This document shows positions 17,983 through 31,255 of a stretch of 64,000 bases of DNA, piece after piece. Location: contig NZ_FNKY01000001.1 in NCBI RefSeq assembly GCF_900103165.1, positions 2,046,001 through 2,110,000 on the forward strand, in the 5' to 3' direction. Both the position numbers and the translations under genes were made by a program. The notes beneath the pieces are model-generated. The model made no database searches. It saw only the letters and a program-made list of their open reading frames with translations, and had not been told where the DNA came from. Origin of the DNA: Nitrosospira multiformis (GTDB lineage Bacteria > Pseudomonadota > Gammaproteobacteria > Burkholderiales > Nitrosomonadaceae). Each line of letters opens with the position of its first letter. Within the stretch, counting starts at the first letter, position 1.

Positions 17983-18489
17983 GTGATCGTGATGGATTCA
18001 TTGTGTTGTACCGCCCCTGTGCATCGCGCGGAGAACTGCCGGAAGAATTACCGGACTACGTTGGGACAATGGGTCTTCGTATGGTCTTTTGGTTATTGCG
18101 CATTTCCAGCCAACGCCGCACCGGCGGCCGCTGCTCCGGCTGCCGATGGCGGTATGCTCCAGGTCATGCTCGGCCTGGGGCTGGTGCTTGCCGTGATCGC
18201 CGGCGCCGCATGGCTGCTACGGCGGTTTGGCGGTATGCCAAGAGGTCCTGCCAATGCAATCAGGGTTATCGGCGGTTCGTCCGTCGGTCAGCGCGAGCGG
18301 GTAGTGCTGGTGGAAGTTGCCGACACCTGGCTGGTAATCGGCGTTGCACCGGGTCATGTGACGGCGTTGCATAGTATGCCAAAGGGGGAGAATGTTGCAT
18401 TGAATGACCCCACGGACCGTGCGGCGGGAATCGACGCGCGTTTTCCCATATGGCTCAGGCAGGTGATGGAGAAGCGGAATGAAAAATAA
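17983..18489 (+). CDS. fliO: Flagellar biosynthesis protein FliO
   Basis: FliO is a small membrane protein that helps assemble the FliP ring of the export gate. The 168-aa product has one strong membrane helix ([21 protein letters not shown], about residues 58-78), then a FliO domain ([26 protein letters not shown]). The GTG at 17983 follows GAGG by 5 bases; ATG 17992 is an alternative. The region before the helix is longer than usual and includes a possible signal-like segment. It overlaps fliP by 11 bases. Confidence 0.86.
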
Positions 18490-19240
18490 CAAGACTATGT
18501 CTTTTACCCGCATTGTGCTGGGAATGGCGCTGTTTGGGGCTTCATTCGTTGCGCTGGCTCAGGTGCCCGGCTTGCCCGCTTTCACCAGTACACCGACCGC
18601 AGGCGGAGGACAAAATTATTCGCTGAGCTTGCAAACCCTGCTGTTATTGACGGCACTTACTTTCCTGCCCGCCGTGCTGCTGATGATGACCGGCTTTACC
18701 CGTATCATCATTGTGCTTTCACTGTTGCGCATGGCGCTCGGTACCCAATCCTCACCACCCAATCAGGTGCTCGTCGGGCTTGCGCTGTTTCTGACTTTTT
18801 TTGTCATGGGTCCGGTATTCGACAAGATCCATACGGACGCCTACGAACCCTATACCCATAACAAGATTACGCAGGCCCAGGCGCTGGAGAGAGGTGTCGC
18901 ACCGCTCAAGGCTTTCATGATGAAGCAGACCCGGGAAGCGGATCTGGCATTGTTCGTCAAACTCTCCGGTCATCCGCAGCTGAATGGACCCGAAGATGTA
19001 CCGTTGCGGGTCCTGGTCCCGGCCTTTGTCACCAGCGAATTGAAAACCGCATTCCAGATCGGCTTCGCGGTGTTCATTCCCTTTCTCATCATCGATATGG
19101 TGGTGGCTTCCGTACTCATGTCCATGGGCATGATGATGGTATCGCCCGCCCTGGTGGCGCTGCCCTTCAAGCTTATGCTGTTTGTATTGGTGGACGGGTG
19201 GCATATGCTGATTGGCTCGCTGGCGGAAAGTTTCTACTAA
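18479..19240 (+). CDS. fliP: Flagellar export gate protein FliP
   Basis: FliP is the main ring component of the flagellar type III export gate. The 253-aa product has a cleavable signal peptide (ending near FVALAQ), the typical block [20 protein letters not shown], and a periplasmic loop. It ends with the conserved [19 protein letters not shown]. The length is standard. The start overlaps the fliO end, which suggests coupling within fliOPQR. Confidence 0.96.
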
Positions 19241-19333
19241 GACGTCCGGCAGGCTTGTTGATAGATTATTGAATACCGGGTGCCGGCCCTAACCAACCAT
19301 CTTTGTCATTGATGAATCACCAAGGAGAAAACC

Positions 19334-19603
19334 ATGACACCTGAAAGCGTAATGACTCTGGGCCAGAAGGCTATGGAAGTGACCTTGATGGTCTCCGCAC
19401 CCATGTTGCTGGTGGCGCTGGCGACCGGCCTGGTAGTGAGCATTTTTCAGGCCGCCACTCAGATCAATGAAATGACACTATCATTCATTCCCAAGCTGGT
19501 GGCCCTGTTCGCAACCATGGTGCTGGCCGGACCCTGGATGCTTTCCGTAATGGTCGACTATATGCGGCAGGTGCTGGAGGGAATTCCCGCAATGGTGGGG
19601 TAG
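19334..19603 (+). CDS. fliQ: Flagellar export gate protein FliQ
   Basis: FliQ is a two-helix membrane subunit of the export gate. The 89-aa product begins MTPESVMTLGQKAMEVTLMV and contains the family motif FQAATQINEMTLSFIPK and the second helix ALFATMVLAGPWM. A strong SD (AAGGAGAAA) precedes it. A 93-base gap separates it from fliP. Confidence 0.95.
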   Translation: MTPESVMTLGQKAMEVTLMVSAPMLLVALATGLVVSIFQAATQINEMTLSFIPKLVALFATMVLAGPWMLSVMVDYMRQVLEGIPAMVG

Positions 19604-19659
19604 CGATAACCATTGCATACCGCTGAGAACCTCCGATAGATTTAAAGCCTCCTTTGTAA

Positions 19660-20478
19660 ATGATAACCTTCGGCTCCGCCGATCTTAATGCCTGGATGAC
19701 GTCCTTCATATGGCCGCTGGCGCGTATCCTGGGGCTTCTGGCGGCGGCGCCGGTACTCGGAAACGCCGCGATTCCGACGCGGGTAAAAATCGGGCTGGGG
19801 GTACTTGTCACATTGATTGTCGCGCCAGCTATCGGACCACTGCCGAAGGTCGAACCGGGTTCGCTTGAAGGGTTGCTGATTCTCGGCCAACAGATCATTA
19901 TCGGGCTGGCGATGGGCTTTGCGGTACGCATCATATTCAGCGCGGTGGAGATGGCCGGCGAAATAGCGGGCCTGCAAATGGGATTGGGTTTTGCCACTTT
20001 TTTCAGTCCCCGCAGTGACGGCAGCACGCTGGTAGTGGGGCGCTTTCTCGGCCTGCTGGCGACGCTCACTTTTCTCACTATGAATGGCCATCTGTTGATG
20101 TTGTCGGTGCTGGCGGAGAGCTTCAGCGTATTTCCCATTTCCGCGGAGCCGTTCTCGGCTGGCGGCTGGAAGATGCTCGCGGGGTGGGGTGGCAAGATTT
20201 TCGAGGCGGGCCTGGGGCTTGCGCTGCCGGTGGTAACGGCATTGCTTGTCGTCAACCTGGCACTGGGTATTCTCACCCGCGCCGCACCCCAATTGAATAT
20301 TTTCGCGGTGGGTTTTCCGATCACGCTGATGGTGGGAATGGTGGCATTGATGCTGTCGCTCCCTTATTTTATCCCGGTAATCGAGCGGCTGGTTACGGAA
20401 GCGCTGGAAACCATGCTGGAGGTGGCTCGCGCCGCTACCGGCCACTCATCAGGCAATCCTCCTGGGGATTTGCCGTGA
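19660..20478 (+). CDS. fliR: Flagellar export gate protein FliR
   Basis: FliR is the large membrane subunit of the export gate. The 272-aa product has about six hydrophobic segments, the LARILGLLAAAPVLG opening, GEIAGLQMGLGFATFFSP and the RAAPQLNIFAVGFPITL motif. It closes the flagellar run in this window; flhB and flhA would lie elsewhere. No clear terminator follows, but hairpins begin about 250 bases downstream. Confidence 0.95.
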   Translation: MITFGSADLNAWMTSFIWPLARILGLLAAAPVLGNAAIPTRVKIGLGVLVTLIVAPAIGPLPKVEPGSLEGLLILGQQIIIGLAMGFAVRIIFSAVEMAGEIAGLQMGLGFATFFSPRSDGSTLVVGRFLGLLATLTFLTMNGHLLMLSVLAESFSVFPISAEPFSAGGWKMLAGWGGKIFEAGLGLALPVVTALLVVNLALGILTRAAPQLNIFAVGFPITLMVGMVALMLSLPYFIPVIERLVTEALETMLEVARAATGHSSGNPPGDLP

Positions 20479-21447
20479 TTGCCTCAATTTTCAGATTGAA
20501 ACTCTACAATCATTGCCCAAATTGCGAATTGCTTACGAAGGGGCTTGCCTCCTCAGCAGCTTGACGAAATAGCTATTATCAATTCCAGGAAGAAGGGATG
20601 AGTATATTCACGAGTTTCCGACAAGTAATCGCTGTAGGTGCAGTTTACGATACATCATTCCAGGCGAAAGACTATCCTGATGGTGCGAACGCATCCTCTA
20701 CACATGCTGATCAATATAGGTAAGCCCCCGGTTATGCCGGGGGACTCACCGGAGTTTGACCTTTACGATGGTCGGTGTGAATTTCTGATCTCTACCAAGA
20801 GAAAGAGGATGAGCACTATGATCAACTCAAACTTGGCATGTGATGCCGCCTTTAGGCGGCGCCAGTTTCTTGCCCCTTTGAGGGGTTAACAGAAATAGGC
20901 CTCCGGCTTTGCCGGAGGTAATTTGACTTGTTCTATACGCACCCATTCCAGCGTATGAACCACCTTCTCCAGCTTCGGTGTCAGCGAATCTGCTTCCAAT
21001 CTCAATTCCGGCATCAACTCACCCTGAACCACCTGCCACCGTTGCATTACTCCTGTGTGTTGCGTAGTATCCATATCGGACGTATAGATGAAGTATTCAG
21101 GACCCCCCATCTTGCCAGCATGGCCGCCCATTTCTACCCCATCCGGCGGTTAATCCCGTTCACGCGGGGAGTTTTGCAAGAAACTCACTTGTTATTTGTC
21201 GACTTTGATCTATGAATAAACTTCAGGCTAGTTCGTCATGCTGTGGATAGTGGATCAAGGTTGTGCTCAATTCACCCTGAATTCCACTATAAGCGCGATG
21301 GCAGCATAGCCGCCAGGCACCAAGAGCAGGACAACGAAGAAGGGCAGGATCATCAGGGAAGCTTCTTTTAAAGAACATTTGTTTTTCCTATTTTTCCAAT
21401 GTATTTGTTCCACTTTCGGGGCAGAGTATTGACAGAAGGAGCAGACA
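20479..21447. other. Gene-poor gap with five short GC-rich hairpins
   Basis: This 969-base gap after fliR holds a run of short stem-loops. Stems are CCCCCGG/CCGGGGG (20725-20743), GCCGCC/GGCGGC (20845-20860), CCCC/GGGG (20873-20885), CCTCCGGC/GCCGGAGG (20900-20918) and CCCG/CGGG (about 21155-21168). Small frames with SD-like sequences occur: 20598-20723 (41 aa, SD GAAGGG, ending just before the first hairpin) and 20809-20889 (26 aa). A 28-aa hydrophobic frame lies on the minus strand at 21267-21353. None is recognised. The pattern suggests old mobile-element debris or a REP-like patch. Confidence 0.4.
20886..21131 (-). CDS. Uncertain small ORF, unrecognised
   Basis: An 81-aa frame opens with ATG 5 bases after GGGG and has a protein-like central stretch (MQRWQVVQGELMPELRLEAD). 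I do not recognise it. Its last 15 codons run through the CCTCCGGC/GCCGGAGG hairpin, which makes the 3' end suspicious. A single CRISPR-repeat-like sequence lies just upstream on the same strand. It may be a gene remnant. Confidence 0.28.
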   Translation of the reverse strand: MGGHAGKMGGPEYFIYTSDMDTTQHTGVMQRWQVVQGELMPELRLEADSLTPKLEKVVHTLEWVRIEQVKLPPAKPEAYFC

Positions 21448-23079
21448 ATGGGTTGGGCACCGAATTGGGTTGGCATCAAGGGCGGTGTTGCGGCACCGTC
21501 GACTTCCATTACCTCGGTTGCGAGGTATCCGCGGCATCTCGATATCTTTTGCGTGGGCACCGACCACGGAATTTACAGCGCCTGGTGGGATATCTCCACG
21601 GGATGGTCGAACTGGTTTCATATTGCCGGTGGCATCGCGGCGCCGGGGACGACCGTCACCGTGGTCGCCCGCAATCCCGACCACCTCGATCTTTTCGTGG
21701 TGGGATCGGACCACAAGATCTACAGCATCTGGTGGGATGCGAACGGCGGGTGGGCCAACGGCTGGTTCCGTGTTTCCAACCTGACCGCGGCGCCGAGGAC
21801 TTCCGTCGCGGCCATTGCCCGAAACCCCAACCACCTGGACCTGTTCGTGGTGGGATCGGATCACAAAATCTGCAGCATCTGGTGGGACGCCCAAGGCGGC
21901 TGGGCGGCGAACTGGTTCGTTGTCAGCGGCGGCGTCGCCGCAGGCGGGACATCAATCACGGCGGTGACCCGCAACCCCAACCATATCGACCTTTTTGCGG
22001 TCGGGTCCAATCATGGCATCTTAAGCACCTGGTGGGATGCCAGCACGGGCTGGGCAAGCTGGTTCCAGGTTGCGGACGGGTTCGCCGCCGCGGGCAGTTC
22101 GGTTGCGGCCGTGGCGCGTTATCCGACCCACCTGGACCTTTTCGCCGTCGGCATGGACCATAGAATCTACAGCATCTGGTGGGACGCCAATGGTGGCTGG
22201 GCCCAGGACTGGTTTGTGGTGGCGGGCGGCACAGCGGCTCCCGACACGTCTATCAGCGTCGTGTCGCGCTATCCCGATCACCTCGATGTCTTCGCCGTGG
22301 GCACGAACCACGGCGTTTTCAGCATCTGGTGGGACGCTAGCACCGGCTGGGGCTCCTGGTTCCAGATCGCCGCAGGCGCCGTCGCGCCGGACAGCCCGCT
22401 CAATGCACGGAGTCCCTGGGACCGGCACGGTATGATTCGAGGTTTGCCGGTCGTCGCGCCGGGAACCTCGATCAATGCATTGAGCCGCTATCCCGACATC
22501 CTCGATGTCTTTGTCGTGGGAGTCGATCAGCACGTCGACATACGCAATGACTTTGTCGTGGGAGCCGATCGCCACATCGATACGATCTGGTGGCTCGACC
22601 AAATCTACTTCTTCATGCAGCCCCAGCAGCAATCGAACTGGTGCTGGGCGGCAACCGCGGCCAGCGTCGCCCTGTTCTACCAGCCGGGAAGCGGCTGGCA
22701 GCAGTGCGACGTGGCCAATGGCGAACTGGCGCGAACCGACTGTTGCGGCGCAGGGGCATCCGGCCCCTGCAACGTCTACGGCTTCCTCGACCAGGCGCTC
22801 ACGGTGGTGGGCCACTTCGACCACTGGGTGGGCGGCATCGCCACTACCGCCCAGATCGAGAACGAGGTCACCTTCGCCCGTCCGCTGGGGATCCGGGTGG
22901 CCTGGTCGGGCGGCGGCGCCCACTTCCTGGTCATCAAGGGGCAATATAGTGCGGGCGGTATCGACTATGTGTCGGTTGACGATCCGATCTACGGCCGCTC
23001 GGACGTCAATTACGCGACCCTGCAGACTGCCTATAAAGGGTCGGGGACGTGGACCCATACTTACTACACCAAATACTGA
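21448..23079 (+). CDS. Seven-repeat beta-propeller lectin-like / papain-like cysteine protease fusion
   Basis: The 543-aa product has two parts. Residues 1 to about 385 carry seven repeats of about 50 residues built on HLDLFVVGSDHKIYSIWWD, spaced by WF-x-V-x-GG-x-AAPGTS. Seven repeats and the paired Trp resemble seven-bladed PLL-type sugar-binding propellers. From about residue 385 a papain-like domain of the C39/C70 (AvrRpt2-like) type follows, with SNWCWAA (Cys399), GAHFLVI (His492) and SVDDP (Asp511/512). Several extra Cys (WQQCDVA, TDCCGAG, GPCNVYG) could form disulfides. AGGAG precedes the start by 7 bases. There is no signal peptide, so export, if any, must use another route. A 195-aa gene follows after 10 bases. 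The domain calls are by motif; the role is unknown. Confidence 0.78.
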   Translation: MGWAPNWVGIKGGVAAPSTSITSVARYPRHLDIFCVGTDHGIYSAWWDISTGWSNWFHIAGGIAAPGTTVTVVARNPDHLDLFVVGSDHKIYSIWWDANGGWANGWFRVSNLTAAPRTSVAAIARNPNHLDLFVVGSDHKICSIWWDAQGGWAANWFVVSGGVAAGGTSITAVTRNPNHIDLFAVGSNHGILSTWWDASTGWASWFQVADGFAAAGSSVAAVARYPTHLDLFAVGMDHRIYSIWWDANGGWAQDWFVVAGGTAAPDTSISVVSRYPDHLDVFAVGTNHGVFSIWWDASTGWGSWFQIAAGAVAPDSPLNARSPWDRHGMIRGLPVVAPGTSINALSRYPDILDVFVVGVDQHVDIRNDFVVGADRHIDTIWWLDQIYFFMQPQQQSNWCWAATAASVALFYQPGSGWQQCDVANGELARTDCCGAGASGPCNVYGFLDQALTVVGHFDHWVGGIATTAQIENEVTFARPLGIRVAWSGGGAHFLVIKGQYSAGGIDYVSVDDPIYGRSDVNYATLQTAYKGSGTWTHTYYTKY

Positions 23080-23089
23080 GGAGTTTCCG

Positions 23090-23677
23090 ATGGCCCTGAT
23101 CGCTCCAAAACCTCCGCAACAGGCGCTGGATGCCATGCATTCCACCTTCCTGGACTTGAGCAGGAATCGCGCCTTCAGAATCCCTGCCTTGCGCAACGCT
23201 GCCGGGCCCCTGCAGCTTGCCGAGCCGCATCAAGTGTTCACGCTCGGTCTCACCGACCTTGCGGCCGGAAAAGGCCTCGATGCGGCCAGGCCAACCGGAT
23301 GGCGCTATCTCGTGCAGGAAGGTGACAATGTCCTCGCCTCCGCCGAAACGGTTGCCGGGCCCAGGGGGGAACAGGTTTTCTCCACTCTTAACGAAGGCCG
23401 CTTCGTCGATTCGAGCGCGAAGGCGATGCGTGCGGCAAGGGACTCTCCGGAAGTGGGGCAGGGCGGCTTTGAACTGCGGCTACTCAATGTTCCCGGACTC
23501 TATGTCCTGGCTCTCTGGCTTCATGGTGCTCAGGGAAAAGGCGATCTCCTGGTACCGCTGGCACCCTCTCCAGTGGAAACTCCGGCAGGCAAACCAGTTG
23601 CTGCCGCCGTGCTGCTCAAGGAGCTTGCAGACAAGGCCCGGGCACCTATCGGGGCTGCCGACCGGAGCGGCGGGTAG
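23090..23677 (+). CDS. Unrecognised partner protein of the propeller-protease
   Basis: The 195-aa product starts 10 bases after the protease stop with a strong SD (GAGGAG), so the two form an operon. I do not recognise a domain. The N-terminal third is mixed helical; the middle has a beta-like pattern (GWRYLVQEGDNVLASAETV) with GGFELRLLNVPGLYVLALWLHG later, and the tail is Ala/Pro-rich. No signal peptide, membrane helix or Cys is evident. Tight pairing with a Cys protease makes an inhibitor, immunity or substrate/adaptor role plausible, but nothing in the sequence proves it. Confidence 0.65.
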   Translation: MALIAPKPPQQALDAMHSTFLDLSRNRAFRIPALRNAAGPLQLAEPHQVFTLGLTDLAAGKGLDAARPTGWRYLVQEGDNVLASAETVAGPRGEQVFSTLNEGRFVDSSAKAMRAARDSPEVGQGGFELRLLNVPGLYVLALWLHGAQGKGDLLVPLAPSPVETPAGKPVAAAVLLKELADKARAPIGAADRSGG

Positions 23678-24252
23678 ACTGTTGAACAAAGCGCCTGCAT
23701 TCAAGGCAGGTGCAACGCTCAAGGCACCGCCTCAGTGTTTAACGGCCGGTGTGGCCTGACGGCGGGGAATGAAATCAGGAGATTCGCGGACGCGAGAAAC
23801 GTTCGCGGTTTAGCACGCCGGTTTTAGCGAATCAGGAATTCTTTGGATAGCTGTTCAGCTAGCCGTTTAGCGTGCCACCGGAACCGGTGAATCCGAGCGT
23901 ATTCAGCCATGCCGTGATCTCCGAAGCTCGGTGATATCACCACGTCTCCAGATTGATGTAAAAAAGATCAATTTGCCCCTGGTAGTGCGTATGTTGGGTT
24001 TACCCCTTGTAGGGGGATTTTGAGAAGAGTGGCGTAGTTATTCATACGCCCGGCTGAACAAAATTTCCATACGAAACAAAAGTCCAGCAAGGACGCGCGT
24101 CAATTTATGAAACATTCGGGTTAACATTGATCTTTCGCAAATTGATGCTAAAGTTAATAGCACGTTTTGTAAATAGGTGAAGCGAGAGGCAAACTGTGCG
24201 AGCAGCCTCCGCCATTACGCCACTTTTTCTTCGCTGAACCGCCAGGAGCCGC
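23678..24252. other. Non-coding gap with truncated element at its end
   Basis: This 575-base gap shows no convincing gene. It contains a partial copy of the GTTTCATAAATTTG-ended element at about 24006-24120 and AT-rich sequence before the next gene. GGAG lies 7 bases before the ATG at 24253. Confidence 0.5.
24006..24120 (+). mobile_element. Truncated copy of the 159-bp element
   Basis: About 115 bases match, in reverse orientation, the complete element at 47481-47639. Shared parts include GGCGTAGTTATTCATACG, ACGAAACAAAAG and the terminal ATTTATGAAACATTCGGG ending at 24120. The other terminal repeat is missing, so this copy is defective. Confidence 0.65.
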
Positions 24253-25344
24253 ATGATGCCAAAACTCGACCATGCCACTTTCATTAATCGTTTAAAGGGC
24301 AAATCCATCGACGCCGCCGCGCTGCGGAGTGCTTACCCGGATTTGAACGTGAGGACCATCGCCGCTAATGGCGTTATCACAGGCACGGCACAGAATCTCG
24401 AGAAATTGTGGGAGATCATCGATAACTACGATCACGATGGCAACGTCAACACCATCTCCGATGCGCCGGCCTTATCCATTGCAGAGTGGTTGTTTACCAA
24501 GGCGGAAAGTCCTGTGTCCCTGGGCGGCGAGACGGGGAGTTGGAGGAAGGTTGCGGAATTCGGCGACAGAAGCATTACCAGCAATAGTAATGCTCATCGA
24601 TCCGCCATCGACAGCACCGGTATTGGCCTCTACTACGGGGATCATTCGCCTTTCCGTGAAAATATCCTGAGAGGGGATCGCCAGGGCCTGCAAATGCAGT
24701 TGGACGCCATGGGGGCGGGAAGCTGGCGTATGGAGTCCATCGAACCTGGATCCGTTGTTATCGAAAACACATCCGGCCAATCTGCCCGCCTTCAGGAGAG
24801 CTCATGTATCGGCTGGGTGATGCAGAATGCCAAGGCGGCTTATGAAGGCGCCGGCATGGGCGCGCGCTTCGCCGAGATCAACAACAGAGTGAAGGATGCC
24901 GATCTGCGCGGCACTGTTTTGTGCGAGGAGCTGCAGAAAGACGGCTGGACGGCTGTCTTCTACTCACCACGGACCGCCGCAGACCTGTCGGATTCGGGCG
25001 AGCGCGAGAAATTGGGCGCGCTTAACATGGCAAAGGCCGGCGCGCGCGTGTGGAAGTCACCAATTCCGGAATCGAGCGGCGTGCGTTGCGACGCGGTTAT
25101 CACCGGCTATCGCGGGGTCACGCCAGACCGCAATACCGAGGCGCTGCTGGAGAAGCTGGAGAATGTGCCCTTCTTCGTCGGCGTTGCCAATGGTGGCATA
25201 CACACTTTCGTGGGGCACAATGGAAGCGTCTGCGATTTTCACTGGACGGCGCAGCCTGACGACAGGAATGCCATGACCGAGAACCCCATTCGGGAATGGA
25301 AGTGGGATACGGGGCTCTACATGGTGCCGCCGGGATACTGGTAA
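24253..25344 (+). CDS. Unrecognised protein with Cys/His peptidase-like motifs
   Basis: The 363-aa product is not one I can name. Residues about 57-69 (DNYDHDGNVNTIS) resemble a calcium-binding EF-hand-type loop. A helix-starting Cys (SSCIGWVMQNAKAAYEG, Cys185) and later His residues in a strand-like context (GGIHTFVGHNG, His317 and His322) are arranged like a Cys/His hydrolase (papain or NlpC order). No signal peptide is seen. AGGAG precedes ATGATG. It lies between a propeller-protease operon and a lipoprotein-phosphoesterase operon, all probably envelope or extracellular enzymes. The peptidase idea is inference from motif order only. Confidence 0.6.
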   Translation: MMPKLDHATFINRLKGKSIDAAALRSAYPDLNVRTIAANGVITGTAQNLEKLWEIIDNYDHDGNVNTISDAPALSIAEWLFTKAESPVSLGGETGSWRKVAEFGDRSITSNSNAHRSAIDSTGIGLYYGDHSPFRENILRGDRQGLQMQLDAMGAGSWRMESIEPGSVVIENTSGQSARLQESSCIGWVMQNAKAAYEGAGMGARFAEINNRVKDADLRGTVLCEELQKDGWTAVFYSPRTAADLSDSGEREKLGALNMAKAGARVWKSPIPESSGVRCDAVITGYRGVTPDRNTEALLEKLENVPFFVGVANGGIHTFVGHNGSVCDFHWTAQPDDRNAMTENPIREWKWDTGLYMVPPGYW

Positions 25345-25461
25345 AACTTTACAGCTGGGCTGCGTAAATTTCTTTTTTACCCATTTGACTCATTTCCATC
25401 CATCCAAAGGATCGGAATAAAATCATGAGCACTTTCGAAGAAAAGGTTTGGGGTAACGCAA

Positions 25462-26103
25462 ATGCCTGACCGGTTTGCGGTATGGATGACTCTGGTGATG
25501 ACACCCCTGATCCTGGGTTGCGCCCAAATCAAATCCTTCACGGTGGTGCCGAGTACCATTTGTCCTGGCGAGACCGTCAGGGTTGACTGGCTTACTTCGG
25601 GCGATGCGGGCAATGGAACATTGGATTCGGTTCCGGTACTGGCGGGCGCAGGGGAGGTACCTGAGGAAGGATCGCGGTTCTTTACCCCCGCACAAAGTAC
25701 GCGTTTCATACTCAAGGTTCCGGGTGTGCTCAAGAACGCTCAGCGCGAGTGGGATGTGCAGGTAGCCCCGGAGCAGAGTTCCAGGCTGCTGGGAGGCATT
25801 GCCCAATGTGGCGGCGAACCTCAATCGGTATCGGCTTCATTTACGATTCAGCGTGAGGACTCTTCAACACGTATTCGCGCCATATTGATCACGAATAGCT
25901 ACCCCCGGCTGTTATCGATCAGCAAAGACGGCATGGAAATTGATATTCCACCAAACGGCACAACCGATGGCTTCAAAAACGTATCCATGATTGGAACCTG
26001 GATAGTTCGTAGTCCCGTCGGCCCTGATGAAGCATGCGATAACGCACTCCAAGCGGTTGCGCGCAGGTTGATTATCAAAATACAGATGGCCTGCAAGGAG
26101 TAA
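25462..26103 (+). CDS. Putative lipoprotein, unrecognised
   Basis: The 213-aa product starts with a signal sequence ending in a lipobox (LILGC, Cys at about residue 20), so it is probably a lipid-anchored envelope protein. The mature part begins with an Ig-like beta pattern (SFTVVPSTICPGETVRVDW) and has further beta-rich stretches and three extra Cys. The following phosphoesterase starts only 3 bases after its stop, so the two are co-expressed. No specific family is recognised; it may be a chaperone or anchor for the enzyme. Confidence 0.72.
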   Translation: MPDRFAVWMTLVMTPLILGCAQIKSFTVVPSTICPGETVRVDWLTSGDAGNGTLDSVPVLAGAGEVPEEGSRFFTPAQSTRFILKVPGVLKNAQREWDVQVAPEQSSRLLGGIAQCGGEPQSVSASFTIQREDSSTRIRAILITNSYPRLLSISKDGMEIDIPPNGTTDGFKNVSMIGTWIVRSPVGPDEACDNALQAVARRLIIKIQMACKE

Positions 26104-26106
26104 TCC

Positions 26107-27456
26107 ATGGCGATTCTTGATCAGATTGAGACCATTGTGATCGTGATGCTGGAGAACCGTTCTTTCGACCATATGCTTGGTCATCTCAGCATGGCCCGGT
26201 TCGGCAATCGAAAAGATGTCAGGGGCCTGGTCGATCCCGAAGCAAATCTGGACTATACGAACTTCCTCGATGGTCAGGGTTACCAGCCCTTCGAGTTGAA
26301 GGATGGACCCCTGCTGCACGATCTGCCCCATAGTAGACCTCTCGTGGCGGCTCAGTTAGGGACGCCTGGCGCTCCCTTCACCATGAGCGGTTTTGCCGAG
26401 GCATACTATCGTGCCAGCGGAAGCAAGGTAAACGATCCGCCGCCGATGGGTTTTCTCTCGCCTGCCGATGCATCCATGTCGAGTTTTCTGGCGGCGCAAT
26501 ATGCCGTGTGCGACAACTGGTTTGCGCCGCTGCCAACGGATACCCAGCCAAACCGTTCGGTGGCTTACACAGGCTACTCCCTGATCGAAGACACGAAACC
26601 GCGTCCTATTCCTACCATCAAGGGAAGCTTCATTTTCGAGTGGCTGAAAGCTCATAACGTCAGTTGGCGTGTGTATCACTGCGGAATATCGTTCTTTACG
26701 CTGTTTGATCGGTTTGATGAAGTGCTGGGCCCCAACTTTCGCAGTTTCAGACAATTTCCGGGAGATTTTGAGTCCGAATCGGTATCGGAGATGCCAAAAG
26801 TCATGTTCATCGAGCCTGAATATAGCGATTCGCCTGTCCATTTCGGCTGGACCGCCAACGACAATCATCCGCCCACGCCTGTCGGTCCCGGTGAAAATTT
26901 TCTGCGTGATATTTACAGGCTGCTGACCAGGGATGCCGCCAAATGGAATCGTACGCTGCTGATTGCCACGCATGATGAACATGGGGGTTTCTTCGATCAT
27001 GTTCCGCCGCTGACGATTCCCACTCCGGTGCCGCCCGGCGCGCTTTTCTCGACGGGATTCGAGAGTACCGGCCCCAGGGTCCCGGCGCTCATCGCATCGC
27101 CATGGATTGCGCCTGGCACCGTATGCAAGGGTGCGATGGACCATACCTCCATACTGCAGTTGCTGTCCGAGAAATTCGCGGGCACCCCGGACTATAATGA
27201 CGAAGTCAAGCGGCGTAGAAAATTGGGGATACAGAGTGTGTCGCAAGTACTGGCTCAGCCACTCGCCCAGCCGAGAATCGATATCCCGTCCCCGCCACAG
27301 GATATTATTTCAAGTTCGGTCGTGATGGCGCCGTCGACCGAGCCACAGACCGATAGTCAGCAGGCTTTTACCGAGGCGGCAAAGAAACTATTGAAGTATG
27401 ACCGTACGCGCGCACTCGAGAAGTATCCGGAACTTGTGCATATGCCGGAAGAATAA
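26107..27456 (+). CDS. Phosphoesterase of the phospholipase C / acid phosphatase family
   Basis: The 449-aa product belongs to the phosphoesterase family that includes bacterial phospholipase C and AcpA acid phosphatase. Signatures are IVIVMLENRSFDHMLGHLS at residues about 9-27 and PTDTQPNRSVAYTG. ATHDEHGGFFDHVPP near residue 290 and GPRVPALIASPWI are also present. These enzymes cleave phosphate esters of lipids or small molecules. Family members are commonly exported by Tat, but no leader is visible here. AAGGAG precedes the ATG. A lipoprotein gene lies 3 bases upstream. The substrate cannot be told from sequence. Confidence 0.87.
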   Translation: MAILDQIETIVIVMLENRSFDHMLGHLSMARFGNRKDVRGLVDPEANLDYTNFLDGQGYQPFELKDGPLLHDLPHSRPLVAAQLGTPGAPFTMSGFAEAYYRASGSKVNDPPPMGFLSPADASMSSFLAAQYAVCDNWFAPLPTDTQPNRSVAYTGYSLIEDTKPRPIPTIKGSFIFEWLKAHNVSWRVYHCGISFFTLFDRFDEVLGPNFRSFRQFPGDFESESVSEMPKVMFIEPEYSDSPVHFGWTANDNHPPTPVGPGENFLRDIYRLLTRDAAKWNRTLLIATHDEHGGFFDHVPPLTIPTPVPPGALFSTGFESTGPRVPALIASPWIAPGTVCKGAMDHTSILQLLSEKFAGTPDYNDEVKRRRKLGIQSVSQVLAQPLAQPRIDIPSPPQDIISSSVVMAPSTEPQTDSQQAFTEAAKKLLKYDRTRALEKYPELVHMPEE

Positions 27457-27498
27457 TATTTCCGAAAATGCGATCGTCATTCAGACTCTGGCAAGCTG

Positions 27499-28692
27499 TT
27501 AGCCAAGCGCTTTCGCGATGCGCCGTAATGCATTTTCCAGGTTGGTCATGTGGGTGGCGAAGGAAAGCCGGATATAGCCTTCGCTGCCGAAGGCTGACCC
27601 AGGCACCACCGCCACACCGCTGTGTTCCAGCAGATATTCGCTGAAAGCGATATCCGTGGAATCGTTAATCACTCCTTTGGCATGCAACCCGCTGATGGCT
27701 TCCCGGACATCGGCAAAAGCATAAAATGCGCCTTCAGACAACAGGCATACGACGCCAGGGATGGCATTGAGTGCGCCGGTTATGAACTGATTACGTTCCT
27801 TGAATGCTTCCACCATGGGTACAATACAGGACTGATCGCCATTAAGCGCCACTTCCGCGGCGGCCTGTGAAATGGAAGCGGGGTTGGAGGTGCTTTGGGA
27901 CTGGATATTTTCCATGGCGGTAATGATATGTGCCGGGCCGCCGCAATAGCCAATGCGCCAGCCTGTCATGGCATAAGCCTTGGATACGCCATTAAGCACG
28001 ATGGTGCGGTCATGCAGGGCAGGGCAGGCATTGAGGATATTCACGAATTTGCCGCCCGAAAGCAGTATATGCTCGTACATGTCATCGGTGGCGATTAGGA
28101 TATTAGGATATTTCAGCAGAACTTCGCCCAGCGCTTTAAGTTCATCGAATGTATAAACACCGCCGGAAGGATTGCTGGGACTGTTGATAACAAACATTCG
28201 GGTTTTGGGTGTAATAGCTTTTTCGAGCTGCGCCGCAGTTATTTTGAAACCCTGTTCGATACCGGCTTCGACAATCACCGGCTTGCCTTCGGCGATCAGA
28301 ACGATGTCAGGATAGGAAACCCAGTAGGGCGCGGGAATGATGACCTCGTCGCCGGGGTTGATGACCGAAAGCGTCAGATTGAAAAAGCTTTGCTTGCCGC
28401 CGCACGAAACCAGAATTTGCTTCGCGGAATAGTCAAAATTATTATCGCGCTTGAATTTGGCGATAATGGCATTTTTCAGGCCGGGGGTGCCGCCCACCGC
28501 CGTATATTTGGTGAAACCTTTATTAATGGCGGCAATGGCCGCATCCTTGATATGTTGAGGGGTGTCGAAATCCGGTTCGCCGGCACCCAGTCCGATGATA
28601 TCCTTTCCTTCCGCCTTGAGCCGGGCGGCGCGGGCGGTGACGGCAAGGGTGGGGGAGGGCTTGATGGCCTGAACGCGCTTTGAGAGTTCCAC
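27499..28692 (-). CDS. Class I aminotransferase (aspartate aminotransferase type)
   Basis: This PLP enzyme of about 397 aa transfers amino groups between amino acids and 2-oxoacids, most likely aspartate/oxaloacetate. It has the N-terminal GLGAGEPDFDTP motif, the NSPSNPSGG segment and the PLP-lysine block (GVSKAYAMTGWRIGY). The C-terminal GSEGYIRLSFA holds the carboxylate-binding Arg. The GTG at 28692 is favoured: AAGGA lies 7 bases upstream and MELSKRV is the common start. It is convergent with the phosphoesterase gene and divergent from uvrB. Confidence 0.92.
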   Translation of the reverse strand: MELSKRVQAIKPSPTLAVTARAARLKAEGKDIIGLGAGEPDFDTPQHIKDAAIAAINKGFTKYTAVGGTPGLKNAIIAKFKRDNNFDYSAKQILVSCGGKQSFFNLTLSVINPGDEVIIPAPYWVSYPDIVLIAEGKPVIVEAGIEQGFKITAAQLEKAITPKTRMFVINSPSNPSGGVYTFDELKALGEVLLKYPNILIATDDMYEHILLSGGKFVNILNACPALHDRTIVLNGVSKAYAMTGWRIGYCGGPAHIITAMENIQSQSTSNPASISQAAAEVALNGDQSCIVPMVEAFKERNQFITGALNAIPGVVCLLSEGAFYAFADVREAISGLHAKGVINDSTDIAFSEYLLEHSGVAVVPGSAFGSEGYIRLSFATHMTNLENALRRIAKALG

Positions 28693-28786
28693 GATAATGT
28701 CCTTAGTGTCCTTGCACTGATGCGGGTTGTGTCCGCATGATAATATAGGCGGATAGTCAAAAAATATTGGACCGGGCATTATACCT

Positions 28787-30868
28787 GTGATCGTTACCTT
28801 CCCCAATAGCCCTTACAAGCTGCATCAATCGTTCACGCCCGCTGGCGATCAACCTGAAGCCATCGACAAGCTGGTGGAGGGGATAGAGGATGGCCTCGCG
28901 TTCCAGACGCTGCTGGGGGTGACAGGTTCCGGCAAAACTTTCACGATGGCTAACGTGATAGCACGGCTTGGCCGTCCCGCGATCATCATGGCGCCGAACA
29001 AAACGCTGGCAGCTCAGCTCTATGCTGAAATGCGCGAGTTTTTCCCCGAGAATGCCATCGAGTACTTTGTATCCTACTACGATTATTATCAGCCGGAAGC
29101 CTATGTTCCTTCGCGCGACCTGTTTATCGAGAAGGATTCCAGTATTAATGAGCACATCGAGCAAATGCGCCTGTCCGCAACCAAGGCGCTGCTTGAGCGG
29201 GATGACGCCATAATTGTCGCCACCGTATCGTGCATATACGGTATTGGCGACCCGGTGGATTATCATGGCATGATTCTGCACCTGCGCGAGAATGAAAAAA
29301 TCACTCAGCGCGAGGCCATACAGCGGCTGATCGAAATGCAGTATGAGCGTAATGAGTTTGAATTCGGCCGTGGAACCTTCAGGGTGAGGGGTGACGTACT
29401 CGACATATTTCCGGCGGAAAGCTCGGAAACCGCTGTGCGAGTATCGCTGTTTGACGATATTGTCGAAAGCATGGTGTTGTTCGATCCGCTCACCGGGCGC
29501 ACGCTGAAACAAGTGTCGCGTTATACGGTTTATCCCTCCAGTCACTATGTAACGCCCAGAAGTACCACATTGCGCGCCATCGAGACTATCAAGGAAGAAT
29601 TGAGGGAGCGCATCGATTTTTTTCAGCAAAACCATAAGCTGGTGGAGTTGCAGCGTATCGAACAACGTACCCGCTTTGACCTGGAAATGCTCAATGAACT
29701 GGGGTTCTGCAAAGGTATCGAGAACTACTCGCGGCATCTTTCAGGGAAAAAACCGGGGCAGCCGCCACCCACCCTGATAGATTATCTTCGCTCCGATACG
29801 CTGATGGTGATCGATGAGAGCCATGTGACCATTCCACAGACAGGCGGAATGTACAAGGGGGATCGTTCCCGCAAGGAAAACCTGGTGGAATATGGTTTCC
29901 GCCTTCCTTCCGCGCTGGATAACCGCCCGCTACGGTTCGACGAGTTCAGGCAAATGATGCCGCAAACGGTATTTGTCTCGGCAACCCCTGCGGAGTTTGA
30001 GCGGGTTCACAGCGGCCAGGTGGTGGAACAGGTGGTGCGTCCCACCGGCCTGGTGGACCCGCAGATCGAGATTCGCCCCGCAACTACCCAGGTCGACAAC
30101 CTGATGTCGGAAGTCAGTCTGCGCACGGCCAAGGGCGAACGGGTGCTGGTGACGACGCTGACCAAGCGCATGGCGGAGGATTTGACCGATTATTTTTCCG
30201 ATCATGGCATCAAGGTGCGCTACCTTCATTCCGACATCGATACGGTGGAGCGGGTGGAGATCATTCGCGACCTTCGGCTGGGAAAATTCGATGTCCTGGT
30301 GGGTATCAATCTGCTGCGTGAAGGATTGGACATTCCGGAAGTGTCGCTGGTGGCGATACTGGATGCCGACAAGGAAGGCTTTCTGCGTTCGGAACGTTCA
30401 CTGATCCAGACAATAGGCCGGGCGGCGCGCCATATCAATGGTACCGCGCTTCTCTACGCCGATAGGATTACCGATTCCATGCGTCGCGCCATGGATGAAA
30501 CCGAGCGCCGGCGCAATAAACAAATCCTGTTTAACCTTGAGCATGGCGTTACGCCGCGAAGCGTGCACAAACGTGTCAAGGATTTGATCGATGGCGTTTA
30601 CAACATTGAAACCGCGCAGCAGCATCTAAAGGCGGCGCAGGTACAAGCCCGTTATGATTCCATGAGCGAGGTGCAACTGGCAAAAGAAATCAAGCTACTG
30701 GAAAAGCAGATGCTGGATGCCGCAAAAAATCTTGAATTCGAGCAAGCCGCTCAATATCGTGATGAGTTAAAAAGGTTAAAAAACAAGCTGTTCGTGGGAT
30801 TTATTGAACCTGAACCTGAGGTAAGCCAGGAAAAGACAGCGCCACTCAAGAAGAGGGCGCTTAAATAA
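28787..30868 (+). CDS. uvrB: Excinuclease ABC subunit B
   Basis: UvrB is the damage-verifying helicase-like subunit of nucleotide excision repair. The 693-aa product has Walker A ([14 protein letters not shown], near residue 45), the beta-hairpin region ([20 protein letters not shown]), and helicase motifs such as DESHVTIPQ and [19 protein letters not shown]. It ends with a UVR domain ([19 protein letters not shown]) that binds UvrC. The start codon appears to be GTG at 28787 with a weak SD. Length is normal for the family. Confidence 0.97.
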
Positions 30869-30910
30869 CATAAGAATCAAGTATATAAACTTGAATATTA
30901 AGGTTAATTC

Positions 30911-31255
30911 TTATTTAACAATTGTCGCGGAATTGACAAAAATAATTTGATCGAAGGTACGATTCAGTGTGCTGCTTTTGAAATTTTTCATGACCAGGCT
31001 TTGCTCGAACCGTACATGATCACCCACTTTTACCCGGGTAGTGGGCGCTGCAATCCAGAACCGTTTTTCGGTGGTGGCCAGCTCCATGTAGGTATAGCCT
31101 GGCGCATCCAGGGTGGAGAGGACCTTACCCTCATTGCTTGGCATTCCCGCTGCCGCAGTCGTTGCACTGGTGTTCGCTTTCTCGGCAGCTGCGTATAAAG
31201 GGCTTGCCAGCGCAATTCCGATAGAGAAAGCGACTGCAAAATAAGATATTTTCAA
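30911..31255 (-). CDS. Periplasmic NrfJ-like OB-fold protein
   Basis: The 114-aa product has a signal peptide (MKISYFAVAFSIGIALASPLYAA-type) and a small beta-barrel-like domain. Its signature is GKVLSTLDAPGYTYMELAT, with VKVGDHV and NFKSSTLNRTFDQIIFV. This pattern is found in NrfJ-like periplasmic proteins, whose biochemical role is not well defined. It is convergent with uvrB, and a weak dyad (TCAAGT/ACTTGA near 30879-30896) between them might serve both directions. Confidence 0.72.
   Translation of the reverse strand: MKISYFAVAFSIGIALASPLYAAAEKANTSATTAAAGMPSNEGKVLSTLDAPGYTYMELATTEKRFWIAAPTTRVKVGDHVRFEQSLVMKNFKSSTLNRTFDQIIFVNSATIVK

Follow-up and report, generated by a model that had tools for sequence, protein, structure and literature searches.

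A propeller-headed C70 protease and its unnamed partner domain, detached or fused: a co-travelling gene pair in Nitrosospira

The stretch of DNA considered here (hereafter the window) comprises 64,000 nucleotides from the soil ammonia oxidiser Nitrosospira multiformis: positions 2,046,001–2,110,000 of the forward strand of contig NZ_FNKY01000001.1, assembly GCF_900103165.1. Within it, at window positions 21414..23677, lies a two-gene cassette, delimited as a co-travelling unit by the extent of the DNA similarity that it shares with its five counterparts in four further Nitrosospira genomes; like every feature described inside it, it is on the forward (+) strand. The first gene (21448..23079) encodes a 543-amino-acid (aa) protease in which a seven-bladed, PLL-like propeller is followed by a papain-like domain of family C70 – an architecture drawn from the open reading frame, Pfam, NCBIfam, fold matches and an AlphaFold model with a mean predicted local distance difference test score (pLDDT) of 83.1. 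Ten bases later (spacer 23080..23089, from the open reading frame positions), behind a GAGGAG Shine–Dalgarno sequence that overlaps the protease stop codon, begins the second gene (23090..23677). Its 195-aa product – here termed the partner – ends in ...DRSGG and belongs to an unnamed domain family, recognised by its homologues and by its fusion to C70 in relatives. An initial annotation of the locus had singled out the same pair, and the observation proves to be real.

The propeller spans approximately residues 1–384 (21448..22599, from repeat analysis). The seven repeats first noted there are the W-motif blades of a single seven-bladed propeller of PLL type, in agreement with the fold matches. 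The NCBIfam beta propeller lectin model NF052348 scores 189.2 bits, below its curated cut-off of 200, and we therefore call the propeller PLL-like. Judging from the phase of the repeats, the N-terminal strand (GWAPNW) probably completes blade 7 as its last strand. Alignment and low pLDDT place two insertions in this same blade. The first, of 24 aa (residues 313–336; 22384..22455), is missing from aligned 508-aa relatives and has pLDDT below 50 at residues 310–329; the ratio of nonsynonymous to synonymous substitution rates (dN/dS) over residues 308–384 runs from 0.17 to 1.37. The second, of 14 aa (residues 363–376; 22534..22575), nearly duplicates the stretch just before it and has pLDDT below 50 at residues 361–373. 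We make no claim for a variable number of blades, as the 3–5 repeats of some relatives may result from near-identical repeats having been collapsed in assembly.

The initial description implied that this propeller binds sugar. PLL lectins carry two Trp in their hydrophobic (H) sites and one in their polar (P) sites (PMC12203525). Using the residue numbers given there, we placed the sugar-site Trp by eye on the blade alignment. On this placement the P-site Trp is retained in all seven blades, as is the H-site Trp equivalent to W265 (in blade 7 by way of the N-terminal strand), while the equivalent of the other H-site residue, W251, is Trp in none (0/7), being Tyr, Tyr, Cys, Leu, Tyr, Phe and Asp in blades 1–7. 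Since the P-site Trp and one H-site Trp are kept and the other H-site Trp is replaced, sugar binding is plausible, its type uncertain. The Photorhabdus PLL/PHL proteins, BP39L and CV39L differ on two counts: they are stand-alone lectins, whereas the window propeller heads an enzyme, and in the latter one H-site Trp is replaced in every blade.

The layout had been thought rare. It is uncommon, but it is not unique: the WCWAA motif occurs in 25 of the 120 listed matches to the propeller-protease, and other listed matches join the same propeller (PF26607/PF07938) to M64 (P0027), C1 (P0038) and astacin (P0046) proteases. These share the propeller family with the window protein, but in the cases examined the propeller is C-terminal. 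One listed match (P0011, 915 aa) has 16 WW repeats. In six genomes whose propeller is without C70 the partner was not found. No signal peptide is evident in the 543-aa protease and, by eye, no classical one in 23 N-termini of listed propeller proteins. The occurrence of a lectin-type propeller on unrelated proteases without an evident signal peptide makes the export of PLL-type proteins testable in soil bacteria.

The catalytic domain occupies residues 385–543 (22600..23076) and includes Gln393, Cys399, His492 and Asp512. It had been described as C39/C70-like; Pfam settles on C70 (PF12385, 32.3 bits against a gathering score of 19) and not C39. The papain-like triad reported at the outset holds, Cys399, His492 and Asp512 being unchanged in the sequences of all 35 aligned rows. 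Four further cysteines (420, 432, 433 and 441), invariant across 17 aligned rows, set the window protease apart from AvrRpt2 and family C70, as do its propeller head and its partner; unlike AvrRpt2, moreover, it comes from an ammonia oxidiser and not from a plant pathogen. The model of a fused relative matches the folds of staphopain and AvrRpt2-EA, with much of its C70 part at low confidence.

The partner has 283 homologues at expect values (E) up to 1e-3 and falls into none of the Pfam, NCBIfam or PADLOC families; a Pfam scan of 26 members taken singly gave only one-member, chance-level matches. The sequence ends in Gly-Gly in 100 of the 111 listed homologues of 185–205 aa. The motif, placed exactly at the terminus, is D-x-[ST]-G-G in most detached partners and DD-T-M-G-A in most fused ones, and it is absent from the most divergent members.

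Evidence that protease and partner belong together came from a profile search for both domains in 125 genomes of the family. Distant partner matches fell inside open frames of approximately 390–410 aa, each of which proved to be a propeller-less C70 domain and a partner domain in one protein. Met stands at the position of the partner start in 6/6 Nitrosospira fused frames examined, which suggests that the fused enzymes arose by the joining of formerly separate genes; an actinobacterial fused protein (L041) is without this Met. Once realigned, fused and detached partners have scattered invariant residues in common along their whole length. Among the 120 best of 617 matches to one fused protein, 117 cover its full length, and all but one of these (116) have Met/Ile-Gly-Ala/Ser as their ending; hosts among the matches listed include Nitrosospira, Nitrosovibrio, Methylocaldum, Nitrotoga, Sulfuriferula and Pyrinomonadaceae. 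Decayed remnants of C70–partner fusions in other Nitrosospira genomes (L021, L024 and L068) suggest loss in some strains.

Within the family, C70 is present in 13 of the 125 genomes at 16 places, 14 of them domain-length, and the partner accompanies all 14: detached in six (the window included) and fused in eight, two of the fused frames being interrupted. This count omits partner remnants in G097 and G111 and C70 remnants in G097 and G101:C33; partner matches in G116, G118, G122 and G123 (54–57 model positions, E 5e-4 to 9e-4) were left out as chance. The expectation that the partner gene would be kept adjoining is borne out by the window and four further records (L001–L004), in each of which the spacer is exactly 10 bases long.

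Beyond the family we searched 299 Pseudomonadota genomes for C70, and 398 Pseudomonadota (window included), 288 Verrucomicrobiota and 396 Actinobacteria for the partner; these searches scored 8–12 candidates per genome, so that the tallies may be too low. Eight of the 299 genomes match C70, six clearly, and in four of the six the partner lies directly behind; of the other two, G240 has none, and in G287 a weak match lies upstream, which was excluded from the pair count. Six Pseudomonadota genomes match the partner: the window, three others with C70 in front, one weak case and one (E 4e-5) treated as chance. The single verrucomicrobial match is a C70–partner pair (L004). Thirteen actinobacterial genomes match, one with a detached pair (L040, its C70 preceded by DUF346 repeats), one with the fused form and 11 without a nearby C70. 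The 11 solo partners (L042–L052) stand at about 1501–2100 of each record, several of them near an opposite-strand frame containing MGEKVVA, which may be glutamate-cysteine ligase-like. In the Acidobacteriota a protease match (P0004) and a partner match (P0234) agree in organism name and in the length of the longest contig and are likely to form a pair.

Plasmids extend the pattern. Three of 72,556 plasmid records match the partner at E 1e-5, and in all three C70 is near it. A Nocardia plasmid (NBC_01377) repeats the whole layout – propeller, C70, and a partner 7 bases on – at a protease identity of 36%. Rhizobium pRlvC has a C70 with a C-terminal extension and a partner 14 bases later; at L087 3869–5356 the C70 domain continues into approximately 300 aa of repeats that match no Pfam or NCBIfam family and by eye are possibly another propeller. 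A Burkholderia contaminans plasmid bears a divergent C70–partner pair with a 10-base spacer near a polymorphic toxin gene, and a C70–partner pair also occurs on an Azospirillum plasmid. Close to the Burkholderia pair (L089, 1–4033) lie a gene with a sub-cut-off match to the TaeI immunity family and one for polymorphic toxin type 15.

DNA similarity between the window (18001–31000, blastn) and the five other copies is limited to the two genes and short margins, and none of seven neighbouring window genes was found by tblastn in the 14–17 kb around each of those copies. Compared with one another, nine of ten pairs of copies have at most one short outside piece in common (two have 64 or 161 bases); the remaining pair, L079 and L080, has a common flank of 4.6 kb at 91% identity. 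The six Nitrosospira copies thus occupy five different surroundings, and the protease–partner pair travels as a unit. One genome (G094) holds two copies 290 kb apart (L078, 2204000–2218000; L079, 1914000–1928000), approximately 98% and 95% identical in two pieces, one with an interrupted propeller frame. Both genes are under purifying selection: against intact Nitrosospira copies dN/dS is 0.06–0.15 for C70, 0.10–0.20 for the propeller and 0.13–0.21 for the partner. The C70 and partner trees alike group the window with Nitrosospira and Verrucomicrobiota PLL forms, many deep branches being weakly supported, and pairwise distances for the two domains are correlated (Spearman 0.61; 0 of 2000 permutations as high). 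The cassette is also the richest in G+C of all 2.23-kb stretches of the window (1 of 618 steps). We do not take this as proof of transfer: the partner, at 65.3 in third-position G+C, does not stand out from its neighbours, and the argument for transfer therefore rests on unlike surroundings and distribution.

Could the two genes be mere neighbours with unrelated functions? Short operons can be accidental and solo partners do exist; yet fusion, the 14/14 association, the unlike surroundings and the correlated distances all speak against coincidence, and the fusions bring this reading, which we regard as highly improbable, close to refutation. Because fusion and recurrence in unlike surroundings coincide with the operon layout, it is very likely that the C70 domain and the partner are functionally bound. 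The presence of the partner as the tail of the same protein in many relatives further suggests that it directly controls the enzyme.

As to how, we propose – with a probability of about one half – that the pair is a mobile module in which a glycan-binding C70 protease is restrained by its partner. The two genes would travel horizontally together. The propeller would serve as the N-terminal binding head of the protease, most likely recognising glycans, fucosylated or O-methylated, that surfaces or other cells display; the enzyme would presumably be exported. The partner would bind the protease domain in trans and restrain it, or fold and restrain it, inside the producer; in sister enzymes, where this domain is joined behind a propeller-less C70, it would work in cis in the manner of a C-terminal pro-domain.

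Binding and restraint of the protease by its partner, in the manner of the staphostatins, is the likeliest reading by analogy with the staphopain–staphostatin, SpeB–Spi and Bacteroides C10 pairs and with Cpe1–Cpi1. In PMC3462683, genetically linked small inhibitors of papain-like proteases are described as a common theme: staphopain–staphostatin, SpeB–Spi and the Bacteroides Bfp/Btp–Bfi/Bti systems likewise have a small gene closely linked to that of the protease, and its product is, or resembles, an inhibitor. The present pair differs in that the partner is larger (195 aa against 116–138 aa for the Bti proteins), matches no PDB sequence and in many relatives forms one protein with the protease, and in that the protease bears a propeller and lacks an evident signal peptide.

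Several observations weigh against restraint by the partner. No PDB sequence matches the partner profile at E up to 5, and hence no relationship to staphostatin, Spi or Cpi1 is apparent. C70 stands without a recognisable partner in G240 and in Bifidobacterium pNAC3. Strict dedication of the partner, as first envisaged, holds in the family (14/14) but fails in the Actinobacteria, where no C70 lies within 1.5 kb of 11 of the 13 partner genes and only two of those 11 genomes have C70 elsewhere; orphan immunity or a second role would be the only explanations to suit such solo partners. The dN of the partner is 2.4–5.9 times that of the C70 domain; since four of the five comparisons also give the partner a higher dS, this speaks only weakly for an arms race. 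Confidence in the model of the fused protein is low at the tail and over much of the C70 domain; in the alignment behind it the first ~35 partner residues are scattered among C70 columns. We rejected a docking of the partner on the protease read from this model, its confidence being too low. No known fold for the partner domain was seen, although the fold-match lists of the fused model are dominated by the protease domain and barely probe that of the partner. Finally, immunity proteins are not usually found in permanent fusion. The partner suggested at the outset to be an inhibitor or immunity protein is thus not simply a separate immunity protein, being also the C-terminal domain of related C70 enzymes; its inhibitory role is argued by analogy.

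In the main rival reading the partner is not an inhibitor but a subunit with a structural or activating role, on which folding, substrate choice or assembly would depend, and which is split off here and fused in relatives. The fused form favours such a subunit, since the many full-length fused proteins imply a permanence that suits a working domain better than an inhibitor. Operon order and the precedents in other papain-like families, however, favour an inhibitor, and the solo actinobacterial partners would mostly have no enzyme to serve. We consider a subunit possible, but only tentatively so.

Cpe1–Cpi1 of the type VI secretion system (PMC12136450) and the CdiA-CT/CdiI pair 8ssm likewise combine a papain-like protease with a neutralising protein. 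The pair in the window could also be an effector with its immunity protein: the propeller would bind the surface of a rival, the protease kill, and the partner protect producer and kin. In contrast to those systems, Pfam and NCBIfam scans of the 543-aa protease reveal no delivery domain (the secretion systems of the genome lay outside their scope), and the partner has no PDB match by profile and is fused in relatives – an odd fate for an immunity protein. We therefore regard antagonism as unlikely.

A more far-reaching version of restraint by the partner is about as unlikely. C70 and C39 enzymes prefer Gly, and AvrRpt2 cleavage has Gly at P1. By way of this preference the terminal motif might plug the cleft in the manner of a product, both in trans and in cis; the partner would then found an undescribed family of portable regulators with three states (detached, C-terminal in cis and free-standing), and the propeller would be a swappable head on a cassette that crosses phyla.

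The building blocks – a PLL-like head, a C70 protease, a linked small protein – were already known; what is new is the partner, an unnamed domain that occurs now as a separate gene product and now fused. A literature search, judged by titles and abstract openings with subscription journals mostly outside its coverage, found no publication on the propeller–C70–partner architecture. A conserved domain, nameless in the libraries searched, accompanies C70 proteases in several phyla. Should it be an inhibitor, its natural fused and split forms offer pairs in which protease regulation can be compared in cis and in trans.

Two further ideas were discarded. The flagellar export genes fliP and fliR (Pfam) lie upstream of the cassette at 18479–20478, but neither occurs in the 14–17 kb regions around the five other Nitrosospira copies, and a flagellar export route was dropped. 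A role in anti-phage defence was dropped as well: PADLOC gave no match, and at E 1e-5 the protease matched nothing among phage records. Just downstream of the partner, two frames at 24253–25344 (363 aa) and 25462–26103 (213 aa) belong to no Pfam or NCBIfam family; a phosphoesterase-family gene comes next, at 26107–27456.
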